A stretch of DNA of 36,221 nt from Myxococcales bacterium. GTDB taxonomy: Bacteria; Myxococcota_A; Polyangia; Polyangiales; Polyangiaceae. Of the stretch, positions 28,088 through 34,902 are shown one piece after another; positions within the stretch are counted from its first letter, which is position 1; every line of letters begins with the position of its first letter. The notes beneath the pieces are model-generated. The model saw only the letters and a program-made list of their open reading frames with translations. It had not been told where the DNA came from and did no database searches. The position numbers and the translations under genes are program-made. Location: contig SYFR01000488.1 of assembly GCA_005800325.1 (NCBI GenBank), forward strand, positions 1 through 36,221, given 5' to 3'.

Positions 28088-28118
28088 GGCGCGCGACCCA
28101 TCCCCTCCACGATCGCGC

Positions 28119-28208
28119 GAGCGTGCCCGCCTGCCCGAGCGTGCCCGCCTGCCCGAGCGTGCCCGCCTGCCCGAGCGTGCCCGCCTGCCCGAGCCTGCCC
28201 GATCCTGC
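28119..28208. repeat. 18-bp tandem repeat, about five copies, intergenic
   Basis: Four perfect copies of GAGCGTGCCCGCCTGCCC (28119-28190) and a degenerate fifth lie 31 bp after the AAA gene stop and 110 bp before the FHA-GGDEF start. There are no spacers, so this is not a CRISPR array. It falls in the presumed leader of the GGDEF-aminotransferase-luxEC operon. Confidence 0.95.
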
Positions 28209-28317: not shown

Positions 28318-29214
28318 GTGGCGAATTTCGACGAGAAGACCCGAATTACCCAGATCATCCGACCGGCGGCGGAGGAGAGCCAAGCTCCGCGCACCGACTG
28401 CGTCGTCGTGATCTACACCAAGGAGCCTACGCTCCTCGGCAAGCGCTTCGTGCTCGACTCGAGCCCGCAGCGGGTCGGGCGTGGCACCGACATGGACATC
28501 GTGCTCGACAGCGACTCCGTCTCGCGCCGGCACGCGAGCTTCACCCTCGAGGGCGCGCACTGGGTGGTCGCCGACGAGGGCAGCACGAACGGGACCTACA
28601 GCAACGACGATCAGGTCGCGAAGGCCGTGCTTCGCAACGGCGACCGCATCAAGATCGGCTCGACGATCTTCAAATTCTTGTCGGGCGCGGACGTCGAGTC
28701 GCAGTACCACGAAGAGATTTACCGCCTCACGATCGTCGACGGCCTCACGCAGATCCACAACAAGCGGTACCTGCACGAGTCGCTCGAGCGGGAGCTCATC
28801 CGCGCGCGGCGGCATGGGCGGCACCTCGCCGTCATGATGTTCGATCTCGATCACTTCAAGCGCGTCAACGACGAGCACGGGCACCTCGCCGGAGACTTCG
28901 TGCTGAAAGAGATCGCGGCCCTCGTGCAAGGCGGGATCCGTCGCGACGAGATGTTCGCGCGCTACGGCGGAGAAGAGTTCTGCATCGTGCTGCCGGAGTC
29001 GATGCTCGACGGGGCGGTGGATCTCGCCGACCGCCTCCGCCAGCAGATCGAGAGTCACTCGTTCGTCTTTCAGAACGACCGCATCCGGGTGACCATCAGC
29101 GTCGGCTGCGCCGTCCTCAGCGAAGAAGATCGCAACGCCGCCGAGCTGCTCAAGCGCGCCGACGAGCGGCTCTACCAAGCGAAGAACTCGGGCCGAAACC
29201 GCGTCTGCGCATGA
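28318..29214 (+). CDS. FHA-GGDEF diguanylate cyclase
   Basis: 298 aa from GTG 28318; no upstream start exists in frame. An N-terminal FHA domain (about 35-115) has 'RVGRGTDMDIVLDSDSVSRRHASF' and 'DEGSTNGTY', the phosphothreonine-binding residues of FHA modules. The GGDEF domain (about 135-298) has 'DGLTQIHNKRYL', 'MMFDLDHFKRVND', and the active-site loop YGGEEF (GGEEF at 217-221), an accepted active variant that makes c-di-GMP from two GTP. The inhibitory site five residues upstream reads RRDE instead of RxxD, so product inhibition may be weak. It has no membrane segment. Its TGA overlaps the aminotransferase ATG, so enzyme and cyclase are co-translated. A Ser/Thr kinase may act upstream through the FHA domain. 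Confidence 0.94.
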   Translation: MANFDEKTRITQIIRPAAEESQAPRTDCVVVIYTKEPTLLGKRFVLDSSPQRVGRGTDMDIVLDSDSVSRRHASFTLEGAHWVVADEGSTNGTYSNDDQVAKAVLRNGDRIKIGSTIFKFLSGADVESQYHEEIYRLTIVDGLTQIHNKRYLHESLERELIRARRHGRHLAVMMFDLDHFKRVNDEHGHLAGDFVLKEIAALVQGGIRRDEMFARYGGEEFCIVLPESMLDGAVDLADRLRQQIESHSFVFQNDRIRVTISVGCAVLSEEDRNAAELLKRADERLYQAKNSGRNRVCA

Positions 29215-30506
29215 GCCACGCGCCCGTGCCGGGGCCGCGTTCGCTCGAGCTCGGTGCACGCATCGCCGGGGTCGAGTGCCCCGCATTCACGCATCGCCGG
29301 ACGACCCGCGCGGGCGCGGACGCAACGGACGCGGCGCCGATCGTGCTCGCCTCGGGCAGCGGCGCGACCCTCCTCGACGTCGACGGCAACCGCTACCTCG
29401 ACCTGGCGGCCGGGTTCGGCTCGGTGCTCGTGGGTCACGCTGCGCCGCGCATCGTGGCAGCGATCGCCGAACAAGCAGGAAGGCTCGTGCAAGGGCTCGG
29501 CGACGTCTACGCGAGCGACGTGAAGCTCGCGCTGCTGGAGCGGCTCGCGCGCCTGCATCCGAGCCCCGGCGCCCAGGTGTTGCTCGCGCAGAGCGGCGGC
29601 GATGCGATCGCGGCGGCGATGAAGACGGCGACGCTCGCGACGGGCCGGCACGCCTTCGTCGCGTTCGACGGCGCGTACCACGGCCTCGGCTACGCACCGC
29701 TCGCGGCGTGCGGATTTCGAGCGAGCTTTCGCGAGCCGTTCGCCCCGCAGCTGAACCAAGCGGTGAGCTTCGCGCCGTTTCCGGGGCTGCGCGGCGCCAC
29801 GGTGGAGGCGTCGCTCGCGTTCGTGTCCGACCTCTTGCGCGTGCGGCCGTGCGCCGCGGTCCTCGTCGAGCCGGTCCTCGGGCGCGGCGGCTGCGTCGTG
29901 CCGCCGGCGGGGTTCCTTCGCGAGCTGACGCGGCTCGCTCATCAGCACGGCGCGCTCGTCATCGCCGACGAGATCTGGACCGGGCTCGGCCGGGCGGGGA
30001 GCTGGCTCCGGTCGGCGGAGGACGGCGCCGTGGCGGACATTGTTTGTCTCGGCAAGGGGCTCGGCGGCGGCGTGTCGATCTCGGCCTGCATCGCGACGCG
30101 CGAGGCGATGCGCGGCTGGTGCCAGGGCGAGGTCGTGCACACGTCGACGCACGCGGGCTCGCCGCTCGCCTGCGCCGCGGCGCTCGCCACCCTCGAGGCG
30201 CTCGAAGAAGAGGCGCTCGTGGCGCGCTCGCGAGCGCTCGGCAGCGAGGCCGTGGAGCGCTTTCGCCGCGCCCTCGCGACCTCGAGGTTCGTGCGCGACG
30301 TGCGCGGCCGCGGGCTCATGATAGGCGTCGAGCTCGACGGCGCCGAGTGCGCGATGAAATGCGTGCGAGGGCTCCTGCGTCGAGGCATCGTCGTCGTCTC
30401 CGGCGGGATCGCGGGCGACGTCCTCACGCTGACCCCGCCGCTCACGATCGACGCCGAGGCGCTCTTCTCCTTCGGAGACGCGCTCGCCGAGGTGCTCGCT
30501 GCGTGA
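29211..30506 (+). CDS. Class III PLP-dependent aminotransferase
   Basis: 431 aa from the ATG at 29211 (ATGA overlap with the GGDEF gene). Class III marks: 'TLLDVDGNRYLDLAAGFGSVLVGH', 'LLAQSGGDAIAAAMKTA', 'VAFDGAYHGLGY', 'LVIADEIWTGLGRAGSW' (Asp contacting the PLP ring nitrogen), and the Schiff-base Lys in CLGKGLGGGV (K282), then 'RGRGLMIGVELDG'. This group transfers amino groups to aldehydes or ketones distal from a carboxylate (omega-type transaminases, ornithine and diamine enzymes). The next two genes make a fatty aldehyde from an acyl group, so the likely acceptor is that aldehyde, giving a fatty amine. This is inferred from context. A role on an unrelated keto compound cannot be excluded. 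Confidence 0.92.
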   Translation: MSHAPVPGPRSLELGARIAGVECPAFTHRRTTRAGADATDAAPIVLASGSGATLLDVDGNRYLDLAAGFGSVLVGHAAPRIVAAIAEQAGRLVQGLGDVYASDVKLALLERLARLHPSPGAQVLLAQSGGDAIAAAMKTATLATGRHAFVAFDGAYHGLGYAPLAACGFRASFREPFAPQLNQAVSFAPFPGLRGATVEASLAFVSDLLRVRPCAAVLVEPVLGRGGCVVPPAGFLRELTRLAHQHGALVIADEIWTGLGRAGSWLRSAEDGAVADIVCLGKGLGGGVSISACIATREAMRGWCQGEVVHTSTHAGSPLACAAALATLEALEEEALVARSRALGSEAVERFRRALATSRFVRDVRGRGLMIGVELDGAECAMKCVRGLLRRGIVVVSGGIAGDVLTLTPPLTIDAEALFSFGDALAEVLAA

Positions 30507-31630
30507 GCCAGGTCGAAGAGAGCGACGCGCTTCACGGGCGCGTGGCGCAGTTCATCAAGGGCTCGCTCGCCGGCACCACGACCGAGGGCTTCGAGCAGCT
30601 CGCGCTCGCGCTCGCGCGCTACCAAGCTCGCCATGTCGATGCCGTCGCGCGAAGTCTCGCAGCGAACGGGCTCTCCGCGGCGAGCCTCGCAACCGTCGAA
30701 GCGATCCCCGCGATCCCCACCGATGCATTTCGCCTTCGCCGGATCGCCGCGCACCCGGAGTCCCTCGATGAGCGCGCGTTTCTGACGAGCGGCACGACCG
30801 CGGCCGAGCGCGGGCTGCACGCCATGCGCACGACGCGCACCTATCGGCTCGCGGCCCTCGCCTGGGCCGAGCGCCTGCTCTATCCAGGCCGCACGCCCGA
30901 CCTCGAGGTGCGCCTCGTCGGCCTGCTGGAGAACGAGCAGCGCGCGCCCGCGTCGTCCTTGAGCTTCATGATGGCGCGGCTCGCCGAGCGGCTGGGACGT
31001 GCGAGCTGGCACTTCGACGGCGAGCGACTCGATCTCGAGGGCGTGCGCCGCGCCGTCGAAGAGGCACGTCGGGCGCAAAGCCCCGTGTTTCTCGCGGGGA
31101 CGGCGTTCGCGCTCGCCGAGCTCGTCGACACGATCGGCGCGCTCCCGCTGCCGCCTGGAAGCTTCGCGATGCAGACCGGCGGCTTCAAGGGGCGCACCCG
31201 CGAGGTGTCGCCAGCCGAGCTCACGCGCGGGCTCGCCCGAGTCCTCGCGATGCCCGAGATCCGCGTCGTCGGCGAGTACGGCATGACCGAGCTGTCGAGC
31301 CAGCTCTACCAAGCGGCGCTCGCGCATGTCCTCGGGTGGTGCGCCGTGCCGCTGTCGCGCTCGGCCTATTACGCGCCGCCTTGGCTGCGTGTGACGGCGG
31401 TCGATCCGGCCACGCTCGCGCCGGTCCCGAGACACACCGAAGGGATCGCGCGCTTCGTCGATCTCGCCAACGTCGACTCCTCGGTGGCGATCCTCACGGC
31501 GGACCGCATCACGGTGCTCGACGACGGCGGCGTCGAGCTTCACGGCCGCGTCGCGGGCGCGCCGCCGCGCGGCTGCTCGCTCGCGCTCGAGCCGTTCCTC
31601 TCTCGCCATGCCGACGGCAAGCGAAGCTGA
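30503..31630 (+). CDS. LuxE-like acyl-protein synthetase
   Basis: 375 aa from GTG 30503, overlapping the aminotransferase stop as GTGA. LuxE family marks: 'AIPAIPTDAFRL', the ATP-binding FLTSGTTAAERG, 'SFMMARLAERLG', 'PVFLAGTAFALAELVD', 'MQTGGFKGRTREVSPAEL', and 'VVGEYGMTELSSQLY'. LuxE activates a fatty acid as acyl-AMP and passes it through a Cys thioester to the LuxC reductase. It overlaps the luxC-like gene by 23 bp. No luciferase genes are present in the window, so the complex serves another pathway, probably supplying aldehyde to the aminotransferase. Confidence 0.92.
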   Translation: MSQVEESDALHGRVAQFIKGSLAGTTTEGFEQLALALARYQARHVDAVARSLAANGLSAASLATVEAIPAIPTDAFRLRRIAAHPESLDERAFLTSGTTAAERGLHAMRTTRTYRLAALAWAERLLYPGRTPDLEVRLVGLLENEQRAPASSLSFMMARLAERLGRASWHFDGERLDLEGVRRAVEEARRAQSPVFLAGTAFALAELVDTIGALPLPPGSFAMQTGGFKGRTREVSPAELTRGLARVLAMPEIRVVGEYGMTELSSQLYQAALAHVLGWCAVPLSRSAYYAPPWLRVTAVDPATLAPVPRHTEGIARFVDLANVDSSVAILTADRITVLDDGGVELHGRVAGAPPRGCSLALEPFLSRHADGKRS

Positions 31631-32687
31631 GCGCGACGTGGAGCGCGTCGGTCGCGTGCGGCGCATCCTCGCCGTCGGCCGTGAGCTCCGAGCCCCGGGG
31701 ACGCCACTCGGCCAGCGTGCGCGCGCGGAGCTGCTCCCTACCTGTGGGCTGTCGGGCCCGGGGCTCGAGCTCGCGCTCACGCAGCACCTCGAGGCGAGCG
31801 CCACCGACGAGGAGCTCCGCGCCTTCGTGTCGTGCGCCGCCACGCGCTCGGCCTGCCTCGTCGTGCTGGCCGCGAACGTGTGCACTGCGGCGCTGCGTGC
31901 CGTGGCGTTCGGGCTCGCGACCGCCCCGCGCGTGTTCGTGCGGCCGTCGCGCCGCGATCCGGCGCTCGCTCGCATCCTCGCCGACGTCCTCCACGAGGTC
32001 GTCCTCATCGACGACGTCGCCGTCGCCGCGCTCGAGATCGACGAAGCGCACCTCTACGGCAGCGACGCGGCGCTCGACGCGATCGCGCACACGCTGCCAG
32101 CGCACATCCACCGGCTTCGCCACGGCAGCGGCATGGGGCTCGCGCTCATCGACGAGGGGGCCTCGCTCGCGGACGCCGCCTCGCGCGTGGCCGCCGATCT
32201 CGTCGCGTTCGATGGGCGAGGCTGCCTCTCCCCGAAGGTCGCGCTCGTGCAAGGGCCGAGGGAGCGCACGGAGTCGTTCGCGCGCGCCCTCGACGGCGAG
32301 CTCGCGATGTTCGGCGCTCGCGTTCCGCGCGGGGAGCTCGATGCGGCAGCGCGGGCCGAGCTCACGCGCTTCGGCGGGACGATGTCGGCCGTCGGGCGCG
32401 TCTTTTCCGGCTCGGAGCACCTCGTCGCGCTCGACGACGAGCCCCGCGCGCTCCTGCTTCCGCCGGCGCACCGCGCGCTCACGGTGGTCCACGCATCCGA
32501 GCGGGTCGACGAGGTCGTGGCGCCGTGGCTCCCGTTCGTCACCTGCATCGGTGCCGACGACGCAGCGCGCGAGTCGTCGCTTGGGCGGCGCTTCTCGGCG
32601 AGCTGTCCGCGCGCGCGGTGGGCACCGCTTGGCGCGATGCAGCATCCGCCGTTCGATGGCCCCGTGGATCTTCGCGCGATCGCGTGA
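31608..32687 (+). CDS. LuxC-like acyl-CoA/acyl-protein reductase
   Basis: 359 aa from the ATG at 31608, inside the last 23 bp of the luxE-like gene. Family marks: 'GRELRAPGTPLGQRARAELLPTCGLS', 'LVVLAANVCTAALRAVAFGLATAPRVFVRPSRRDPALARIL', 'GSGMGLALI', and the catalytic block FDGRGCLSPK with Cys near residue 206. LuxC takes an acyl group on this Cys and reduces it with NADPH to the aldehyde. It belongs to the aldehyde dehydrogenase superfamily. Together with LuxE it forms a fatty-acid reductase. It is the last gene of the four-gene overlapping operon and converges with the phospholipase D-like gene. Confidence 0.92.
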   Translation: MPTASEAERDVERVGRVRRILAVGRELRAPGTPLGQRARAELLPTCGLSGPGLELALTQHLEASATDEELRAFVSCAATRSACLVVLAANVCTAALRAVAFGLATAPRVFVRPSRRDPALARILADVLHEVVLIDDVAVAALEIDEAHLYGSDAALDAIAHTLPAHIHRLRHGSGMGLALIDEGASLADAASRVAADLVAFDGRGCLSPKVALVQGPRERTESFARALDGELAMFGARVPRGELDAAARAELTRFGGTMSAVGRVFSGSEHLVALDDEPRALLLPPAHRALTVVHASERVDEVVAPWLPFVTCIGADDAARESSLGRRFSASCPRARWAPLGAMQHPPFDGPVDLRAIA

Positions 32688-32724: not shown

Positions 32725-32752
32725 GGCGTCACGGTGGCGGCGTCACGGTGGC
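32725..32752. repeat. 14-bp direct tandem repeat at the convergent luxC/PLD junction
   Basis: GGCGTCACGGTGGC occurs twice in tandem (32725-32738, 32739-32752) and spans the stop codon region of the phospholipase D-like gene. No U-tract hairpin that would end both transcripts was found in this 55-bp gap. Confidence 0.8.
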
Positions 32753-34902
32753 GGTGCGGGCGGTGCCTCGGCGACGTCGGGTCCCACCGACTCGAACAGG
32801 CAGTCGGACAGCGAGCCGAACGGCAACGAGTAGAGGAAGCCACGCGGGAGGTAGGCCTTCGGCAGGGACTCCCCGTCGAGATCGAGGTCGTCGCCCTCGG
32901 CTTGCCACGCCGCGCGGACGCCGTCGTTGTAGACAGCCGCCTTCGCGAGCTGGGCGCTCCACCCGCCCGCGCTCAGCTCGAGCTTCGTTCCCGAACCAAG
33001 CAGATGGCGGACGATGCGCTCGCGCTCGGTGCGCACCCACGCTGCGTCGAGCACCGCGACGTTGAGCTCTCCCTCGTAGGCGAGGCTGCGATTGTTCTTG
33101 TTCGCCGAGCCGACGCTCAGGAACACGTCGTCGACGACGAGGACCTTCGAGTGCACGAAAATAGGCTGAAAATACGCGTCCGTCTCGTCGATGACGACGA
33201 GGCTCGGATCCACGGCGACGTCGAAGGACTGCAGCGCCAGCGCGAGAAACCGATCCGGAAAGTTCGCCGCGAACAGCTCGAGGCTCTGATAGGTCCAGGC
33301 GCAGCCTGGGTCCGACCACTCGTTCACCGGGTTCGTGACGACGATGAGCAAGAGCCCGGGGACCGCTTGCATGCGCGCCAGGATTCGGTCGTTCATCATC
33401 GGCGCGCGAAAGAACTGATCTTCAATGAGGATGAACTTCTCGGCGCGATCGAGCGCGTTGAAGAAGCTCTCGGCGACGCTCTGCTCGGCGAGCGGCTCGG
33501 GCGAGGTGGCCGTGAGCTGCGCGAGAACGCCGTCGTCGTGCGGTGCCGGCGCGAGCGCGGGCGCAAGCGGGGTCGCGTGCTCGGAGTACTCGACGCCCGC
33601 ATCGAGCTGCAGCTGCCAGCGCCGCGCGAAGACGTCGTGCACGTCCGCGACGCTGGGCCCGTCGATGCGCACGACGTAGTCCTTGCGAGGCACGAAGTCG
33701 GGCAGCGCCTCGCGCGCGGCGACCGCGATGCGCTCGTCGAAGGTGGCGTCGAAGCTCATGCGAAGAGGCTCGAACACCGCGTGGGCCTCGGTGTCCCAGT
33801 CGGCGCCCTTGAGGTTCATGCCACCGACGTAGGCGACACGATCGTCGATGACGACGAGCTTCTGGTGGTAGCTCGCGTGCGGGACGTCGAGCCCGAGCGT
33901 ACCCTCGGCCAAGTCGACGGTGCGCGGCGGTACGTTCGACGCGACCGGCTCGTGCGCCTCGAACGACCAGGTCGCCCCATCCTCGAAGGTCGCGAGCGCG
34001 CGCGCGACAAAGTCGACGGGCTCGGGCTGAAGGAAATAGGCGCCGCTCGTCGGGTTCGCTTGTCCCATCACCTCGAAGTCGTCGCCCCCGTCGTCGCCGT
34101 GGGCTCGCAGCGGCGCGTCCATGGTGATGCCCGACAAGAGCCCGTCTTGATCGAGGAACTGATTCACGAGCACGCGTTTTTTCGCATCGCTGGCCTCGAG
34201 CACACCGAGGATCGTGTTCTCACGGCGCTGCTCGTCGGACAGGTACGGGTGGCTCTCGGGGTCGCGAGCGAGCTCGAAATCGCTCTCCCACCACCAGGTC
34301 GAGGCGAGCACGCTCGCGGTCGCAAGGGCGAGCTCGGCGTGGGTCGCGCCCCAGGCCGTGTCGCCCGCGGAGAAGAGCTCGACGCGGTTGCCGGCTCGCG
34401 GCGGCCGCCCTTGCGCCGAGAACCACTGGTGGCGCAGCCCGAGCACGACGCGATGGCGCGGCAGGCCCCCGGCCACGGTGGCGCTCTGGTGCGCGAGCGC
34501 GACGCCGTGCGCGCCCTCGCTCGACGGGCTCGTCAGCGAGACGGCGTCGAGCGACGTCGTCCCGTCGAACGCCACGGTGACGGTCATTGCGCCGTGGTCG
34601 GGCGCCGAGAGCTCGATCGAGAACGTGGCCGCTCGGGTCAGCGGGATCGTCGCGAGCGGCGCGGCTACGGTGAGCTCCATCCCATCGGCGAGCACGCGCA
34701 GTTTGGCGCCCGCGCCGAGAGGCCGCGCCCAGAGGTCGCGCGCATCCACCTCGAGCGTCGCGACGATCGGGCGATCGATGGTGTCGTTGCCATACGCGCC
34801 GTCGTCCTCTTCCGCGGTGTCGATCGTGCAGGCGGCGGCGACGCAAAGGCATGTCGCCCACATCGCCGCAACCGCGAGTCGTCGCACCATGACGACCACC
34901 AT
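32743..34902 (-). CDS. Phospholipase D-like lipoprotein
   Basis: About 719 aa from ATG 34902 (34890 is also possible); the track's longer start runs into the divergent ketosynthase gene. The signal VRRLAVAAMWATCLCVAAAC carries a lipobox Cys. The mature part begins with an acidic stretch and a beta-rich region (about 30-190), then the PLD module with both HKD motifs: YHQKLVVIDDRVAYVGGMNL and VHSKVLVVDDVFLSVGSANK, each HxKxxxxD followed by G-(x)-N. It should cleave or exchange phosphodiester bonds, for example in phospholipid head groups, by a phosphohistidine intermediate. Export and lipid anchoring point to envelope or external membranes as substrate. It lies between the fatty-acyl reductase operon and a ketosynthase, so a lipid-remodelling role is plausible. 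It ends in a Pro-rich tail. Confidence 0.9.
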   Translation of the reverse strand: MVVVMVRRLAVAAMWATCLCVAAACTIDTAEEDDGAYGNDTIDRPIVATLEVDARDLWARPLGAGAKLRVLADGMELTVAAPLATIPLTRAATFSIELSAPDHGAMTVTVAFDGTTSLDAVSLTSPSSEGAHGVALAHQSATVAGGLPRHRVVLGLRHQWFSAQGRPPRAGNRVELFSAGDTAWGATHAELALATASVLASTWWWESDFELARDPESHPYLSDEQRRENTILGVLEASDAKKRVLVNQFLDQDGLLSGITMDAPLRAHGDDGGDDFEVMGQANPTSGAYFLQPEPVDFVARALATFEDGATWSFEAHEPVASNVPPRTVDLAEGTLGLDVPHASYHQKLVVIDDRVAYVGGMNLKGADWDTEAHAVFEPLRMSFDATFDERIAVAAREALPDFVPRKDYVVRIDGPSVADVHDVFARRWQLQLDAGVEYSEHATPLAPALAPAPHDDGVLAQLTATSPEPLAEQSVAESFFNALDRAEKFILIEDQFFRAPMMNDRILARMQAVPGLLLIVVTNPVNEWSDPGCAWTYQSLELFAANFPDRFLALALQSFDVAVDPSLVVIDETDAYFQPIFVHSKVLVVDDVFLSVGSANKNNRSLAYEGELNVAVLDAAWVRTERERIVRHLLGSGTKLELSAGGWSAQLAKAAVYNDGVRAAWQAEGDDLDLDGESLPKAYLPRGFLYSLPFGSLSDCLFESVGPDVAEAPPAPPP

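Follow-up and report, generated by a model that had tools for sequence, protein, structure and literature searches.

Organization of the locus

We describe here a group of four overlapping genes in a 36,221-nucleotide stretch of DNA from a member of the Polyangiaceae (contig SYFR01000488.1). This stretch, called the window and used as the reference for all positions below, is one whole contig of a host genome assembly that is 68% complete. The genes encode an FHA-GGDEF protein, a class III aminotransferase (AMT), a LuxE-like protein and a LuxC-like protein (Table 1), and the last three, referred to as the trio, are our main subject. The view developed below is that the trio is probably a cassette for nitrile-free synthesis of 7-aminomethyl-7-deazaguanine (preQ1), taking the place of QueC and QueF on the way to queuosine.

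Table 1. Coordinates of the four overlapping genes
Feature	Position	Strand	Basis
FHA-GGDEF diguanylate cyclase, DgcB-like	28318..29214	+	Pfam FHA + GGDEF
Class III pyridoxal phosphate (PLP) aminotransferase (AMT)	29211..30506	+	PF00202
LuxE-like ATP-dependent acyl ligase	30503..31630	+	PF04443 (sub-threshold) + 7xc6_E
LuxC-like thioester reductase, aldehyde dehydrogenase (ALDH) fold	31608..32687	+	PF05893

A sequence-only reading of this DNA had already described the four genes and their overlaps, and re-reading of the open reading frames and junctions agrees with it throughout: the first two junctions are overlaps of 4 bp (ATGA at 29211 and GTGA at 30503), and the LuxE and LuxC genes overlap by 23 bp (31608-31630). 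The same reading took the catalytic motifs to be intact, and the residues in question are indeed present in all three trio proteins and kept among their relatives. Its family assignments for FHA, GGDEF, Aminotran_3 and LuxC are borne out by Pfam; that for LuxE is weaker than had been implied, with PF04443 under its cut-off and a PDB match coming to its aid.

The aminotransferase matches PF00202 (Aminotran_3) with an E value of 1.1e-84, and its PLP lysine (K282, codon 30054-30056), D253 and E220 are intact, with K282 invariant among relatives. It reaches none of the listed NCBIfam cut-offs, those for the named class III enzymes ArgD, GabT, HemL, BioA and PatA included, and it scores 227.5 bits against the PigE model, where the cut-off is 850. 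An AlphaFold model (predicted template-modelling score, pTM, 0.93) matches GabT, ArgD and PuuE in Foldseek. The sequence-only reading had held that tight clustering with a known enzyme would count against its proposal; in a tree with few references, 73 trio AMTs from several phyla instead form one clade, with support of 100/98, apart from E. coli ArgD, AstC, GabT, BioA, HemL and PatA.

The LuxE-like protein matches PF04443 at 23.7 bits (E 2.6e-5), just under the cut-off of 24.9, and a sequence search of the PDB pairs it with Photobacterium LuxE (7xc6_E) at E 4e-9. Its motifs are intact and conserved: SGT (residues 96-98), EYGMTEL (258-264) and an RGC that contains C358 (codon 31574-31576). The LuxC-like protein is the clearer member of the pair: it scores 77 bits with PF05893 (E 1.8e-21), where the cut-off is 21, and its C206 (codon 32223-32225) is invariant and aligns with a cysteine of Photobacterium LuxC. 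Curated models for the long-chain enzymes are far from reached, with 31.8 of 550 bits for LuxE and 35.5 of 750 bits for LuxC. Two genera of the window's family encode LuxE and LuxC as one fusion protein of about 745 amino acids (L048:297-2534 and L051:8552-10783). The AlphaFold model of the L051 fusion (pLDDT, the predicted local distance difference test score, 88; pTM 0.88) has Photobacterium LuxC (7xc6_A) as its best PDB match, at 16% identity. The models of this fusion and of AMT confirm fold and family, not substrate.

Conservation of the trio

The three genes travel together. A LuxC homologue was found in 35 of 39 related genomes. At most loci the genes for AMT, LuxE and LuxC adjoin one another and point the same way, and each of the two junctions has a median spacing of -4 bp; because of this contiguity, shared direction and tight spacing, the arrangement is not due to chance. 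A LuxE homologue is present in 124 of the 144 Myxococcota genomes of a phylum-wide sample, and most of 60 further loci, largely from other families, carry the same trio. A scan of named genomes found trio adjacency in Eremiobacterota, Omnitrophota and Verrucomicrobia (Verrucomicrobiota) as well, and LuxE-LuxC in Methylacidiphilaceae and Gemmatimonadetes. The sequence-only reading had made its proposal depend on synteny that extends beyond close relatives, and the trio is both kept across Myxococcota and found again in Eremiobacterota, Omnitrophota and Verrucomicrobiota.

The conserved neighbours of the trio within the order (clusters c5, c7, c8 and c9) give no hint of a pathway. A set of Eremiobacterota-type loci (L083, L086, L088 and L092) has an operon-like arrangement of its own, with genes for an O-acetylhomoserine sulfhydrylase-like protein, a CoA-binding-like protein, LuxE, LuxC, AMT and a Gfo/Idh/MocA-like oxidoreductase.

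Complementary distribution of LuxE and QueC/QueF

The queuosine pathway was surveyed in the 39 relatives: Tgt was found in 37, QueD in 38 and a QueE-like protein in about 35. QueF was found in none of them, and full QueC-like matches only in two (G023 and G034). Several genomes gave weak QueF matches; that of G025 proved on reading to be FolE-like, and the remaining ones match this frame. Neither QueF nor a full QueC-like match was found in the window's own genome, whose QueE scores 264 bits against TIGR04349 (cut-off 300). In a wider set, Tgt is present in 54 of 54 genomes, and many LuxE-containing Myxococcota genomes have two full-length Tgt genes. With E. coli QueA as the query, a homologue next to Tgt was located in all those genomes of the window's order for which the Tgt region was read, and also in G046 and in the Gemmatimonadota genome G184; in six other Tgt regions, from other families or phyla, no QueA lies within the stretch read. 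Where QueA stands beside Tgt, preQ1 is therefore needed.

Is the absence of QueC and QueF related to the presence of LuxE? The comparison used 20 Myxococcota genomes without LuxE and 35 with it. QueF is present in 14 of the 20 genomes that lack LuxE and in 0 of the 35 that have it (Fisher p 9e-9), and QueC in 14 of 20 versus 1 of 35 (p 1e-7). Counted by family, six families without LuxE have QueF, as do zero of the LuxE-bearing families tested (p 2e-5). Six genomes lack both LuxE and QueF. One of these has QueC (G078), two have no QueE (G040 and G041), and the other three (G099, G146 and G163) have LuxE-bearing congeners, which suggests that their status reflects gaps in the assemblies.

The pattern extends beyond Myxococcota. 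Nine genomes from outside the phylum with the trio or LuxE-LuxC (G176-G182, G184 and G185) all have QueE and Tgt and none has QueF, with QueC-like proteins only in G179, G181 and G184. Both QueC and QueF are likewise missing from five Bacteroidota with LuxE (G188-G192; loci L100, L108, L109, L131 and L135), all of which have QueE and Tgt. Bacteroides ihuae, used as the control, possesses QueC and QueF and gave no LuxC match. LuxE in Bacteroidota is mostly solitary with uninformative neighbours, and LuxC and an aminotransferase were not located in these genomes.

Linkage to queD and queE

QueE makes 7-carboxy-7-deazaguanine (CDG), and genes for the early steps of the pathway recur next to the trio. 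At a Gemmatimonadetes locus (L091), queE and LuxE share 4 bp; at L077, only 22 bp separate a queD-like gene from the AMT gene 3' of it; and queD follows LuxC after 73 bp at a Verrucomicrobia locus (L084). In three lineages, then, queD or queE directly adjoins the trio. Looser arrangements also occur: at L038 the trio and queD are about 2 kb apart, at L053 queE and folE lie around the trio, at L058 and in Minicystis rosea (L068) queD is at a larger distance, and in Bacteroidota queD precedes LuxE in the same orientation (L141, 3118-5296). By NCBIfam models, the L084 and L038 proteins are QueD above the cut-off, and those of L091 and L053 match QueE TIGR04349 at 292 and 265 bits (cut-off 300). 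A search for preQ1 riboswitches beside the trio genes, covering the window and 13 loci, found none that reaches the Rfam gathering threshold.

A proposed nitrile-free route to preQ1

We judge it quite probable, from gene content, synteny, catalytic motifs, distribution and the linkage to queD/queE, that the trio constitutes a nitrile-free preQ1 cassette in place of QueC/QueF. We hold this reading because the chemistry of the trio, which turns a carboxylate into an aminomethyl group (COOH to CH2NH2), matches precisely what is needed to get from CDG to preQ1; because QueC and QueF are largely absent where the trio is present, while QueD, QueE, Tgt and QueA are kept; because queD or queE adjoins the trio in several lineages; and because the trio AMTs form one clade across phyla. 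We infer the substrate, the order of steps, the cofactor, the amino donor and the product, and the route would run as follows. QueD and QueE would make CDG, which LuxE would convert with ATP to CDG-adenylate before the acyl group passes to its C-terminal Cys358 as a thioester. Cys206 of LuxC would then take the acyl group, and reduction with a nicotinamide cofactor would release 7-formyl-7-deazaguanine. The PLP aminotransferase would turn this aldehyde into preQ1, for insertion into tRNA by Tgt and further conversion toward queuosine by QueA.

The proposed route resembles the known QueC plus QueF step (CDG to preQ0 to preQ1) in its starting compound and product, in its upstream (QueD, QueE) and downstream (Tgt, QueA) partners and in its logic, in which the carboxylate of CDG is activated with ATP and then reduced. 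QueC, too, activates CDG with ATP. The trio differs in that it draws on other protein families, uses three enzymes rather than two, would have a thioester and an aldehyde as intermediates where QueC and QueF have a nitrile, and would obtain its nitrogen by transamination. With the LuxC-LuxE fatty acid reductase (7xc6) the trio shares a ligase with AMP-binding motifs and a C-terminal cysteine, an ALDH-fold reductase partner with a catalytic cysteine and, as proposed, acid-to-aldehyde chemistry. It departs from that enzyme in its distant sequence (see the structural match above), in the fusion of LuxE with LuxC in two genera, in the lack of luciferase and of any LuxD that we noticed, and in the proposed deazapurine acid substrate, whose aldehyde would go to an aminotransferase. 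TamH (tambjamine) and PigE (prodigiosin) likewise turn a thioester into an aldehyde and this into an amine, and they too use a class III aminotransferase; those proteins are fused reductase-aminotransferases, whereas the trio consists of separate genes with an added LuxE activation step, has an AMT far below the PigE cut-off, is conserved like a housekeeping gene and is linked to que genes.

Several observations weigh against the preQ1 route. The QueD-like protein of the window's own genome is a divergent PTPS-family protein with 62.5 bits against TIGR03367 (cut-off 89), and Tgt is missing from that incomplete assembly, though present in genomes of the same genus. Since the genomes are related, genome counts overstate independence, and the family-level p value is the one to set beside them. 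LuxE and a QueC-like protein coexist without QueF in one Myxococcota genome (G148), in two from Omnitrophota and in one from Gemmatimonadota (G179, G181 and G184). Several LuxE-bearing genomes, G148 among them, have LuxE-LuxC without an adjacent AMT. Finally, que genes lie within 6-9 kb of the trio at only about 8 of some 110 loci, and linkage alone is thus modest evidence.

What would the route mean if it is correct? Reviews and genome classifiers take QueC and QueF as the sole way to preQ1. A genome that has tgt and queA and lacks queF is accordingly put down as a preQ1 salvager; one survey placed 25% of species in this class and named Bacteroidetes as one of the main sinks (PMC10570037). 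Maps of preQ1 salvage would then need correction, as many of the scored scavengers would become makers, and the retention of QueD and QueE in these bacteria would be explained. LuxE/LuxC-type proteins would gain a role outside luminescence, and a transaminase would provide a way to a base that is otherwise made via enzymatic nitrile reduction. More tentatively, in what we regard as nearly an even matter, this second branch of queuosine synthesis may be widespread, covering Myxococcota, Eremiobacterota, Omnitrophota, Verrucomicrobiota, Gemmatimonadota and also Bacteroidota, with many scored scavengers being producers. No publication that connects queuosine with LuxE, LuxC or an aminotransferase, or that sets out a preQ1 route free of QueC/QueF, was found in the open-licence literature, subscription papers and preprints being outside the scope of that search.

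Other substrates, and salvage

The trio could instead act on a different carboxylate, either in a semialdehyde route like that of ArgB-ArgC-ArgD or on some other metabolite, with the correlation with queC/queF loss an outcome of lineage history. The nearest families of AMT are ArgD and GabT, GltD-like neighbours occur at Omnitrophota loci and the sulfhydrylase at Eremiobacterota loci, and que linkage is limited to a minority of loci, all of which fit such a role. The trio AMTs nevertheless fall outside the ArgD/GabT clade, the complementary distribution is seen again and again in different families and phyla, and chance would hardly be expected to place queD or queE directly beside the trio in three lineages. 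We consider this explanation unlikely.

The sequence-only reading had proposed a fatty-amine pathway: a long-chain fatty acid would be reduced by LuxE-LuxC, and the resulting aldehyde converted by AMT into an alkyl amine, in the manner of TamH in the tambjamine pathway. Its logic of carboxylate to aldehyde to primary amine survives in the preQ1 route; its fatty substrate finds no support. The homology of LuxE/LuxC to a fatty acid reductase and the match of AMT to PigE both speak for a lipid, but the scores lie far below the long-chain LuxE, LuxC and PigE cut-offs. Pfam found no LuxD or luciferase among those open reading frames of the window that were scanned (other loci were not scanned for LuxD), and we noticed no lipid genes in the neighbourhoods examined. 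The distribution tracks the absence of queC/queF, the linkage is to queD/queE, and even Myxococcota whose genomes measure only 2.2-3.3 Mb carry the trio, as is more readily expected of a housekeeping function than of a lipid speciality. A fatty acid is probably not the substrate, and we find an alkyl amine quite improbable as the product.

It is very improbable that these bacteria merely salvage preQ1 from outside while the trio does something unrelated: salvage is the standard classification of queF-less genomes with tgt and queA (PMC10570037), and diverse preQ1 transporters are known (PMC11130926), but it leaves unexplained both the retention of QueD and QueE in nearly all trio genomes and the presence of QueC and QueF in genomes without LuxE.

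The FHA-GGDEF gene and other neighbours

The first of the four overlapping genes appears to stand apart from the preQ1 cassette. Its product matches PF00498 (E 8.6e-19) and PF00990 (E 4.5e-48) in Pfam, with GGEEF at residue 217, a degenerate I-site (RRDE) and a tail EKTRIT, and the tail motif E-K-T-R-(I/V)-T is kept in most homologues in a tail alignment. It shares the FHA residues of DgcB (Bd0742) of Bdellovibrio, in which a phosphorylated tail threonine binds the protein's own FHA domain (PMC6733907). The two proteins have in common an N-terminal FHA domain, a C-terminal GG[DE]EF and a conserved E-K-T tail motif with its threonine; the likeness is one of domains and tail, and the window protein is a neighbour of the trio at the level of a family. 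It is probably, as judged from these features, a DgcB-type cyclase that neighbours the trio in one family.

Within that family (f1, Polyangiaceae), the FHA-GGDEF gene lies 5' of the trio in most members, at 60-85% identity; it was not found at trio loci of other families. Its spacing from AMT is looser than the trio junctions, with a median of +54 bp and overlap at 4 of 17 loci. The gene was considered as part of the functional unit and rejected, since it accompanies the trio only in f1, and its product is probably not a step of the pathway. The coupling of the pathway to cyclic di-GMP suggested by the sequence-only reading thus lacks support, given this restriction to one family and the resemblance to Bdellovibrio DgcB.

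Near-identical DNA was sought in plasmids and none was found. Just 5' of the FHA-GGDEF gene, at 28118-28201, lies an 18-bp tandem repeat of 4.7 copies with 98% match (CGAGCGTGCCCGCCTGCC). Directly 3' of LuxC is a convergent gene (32743-34902, minus strand) with phospholipase D motifs, and different genes occupy this place at other loci.

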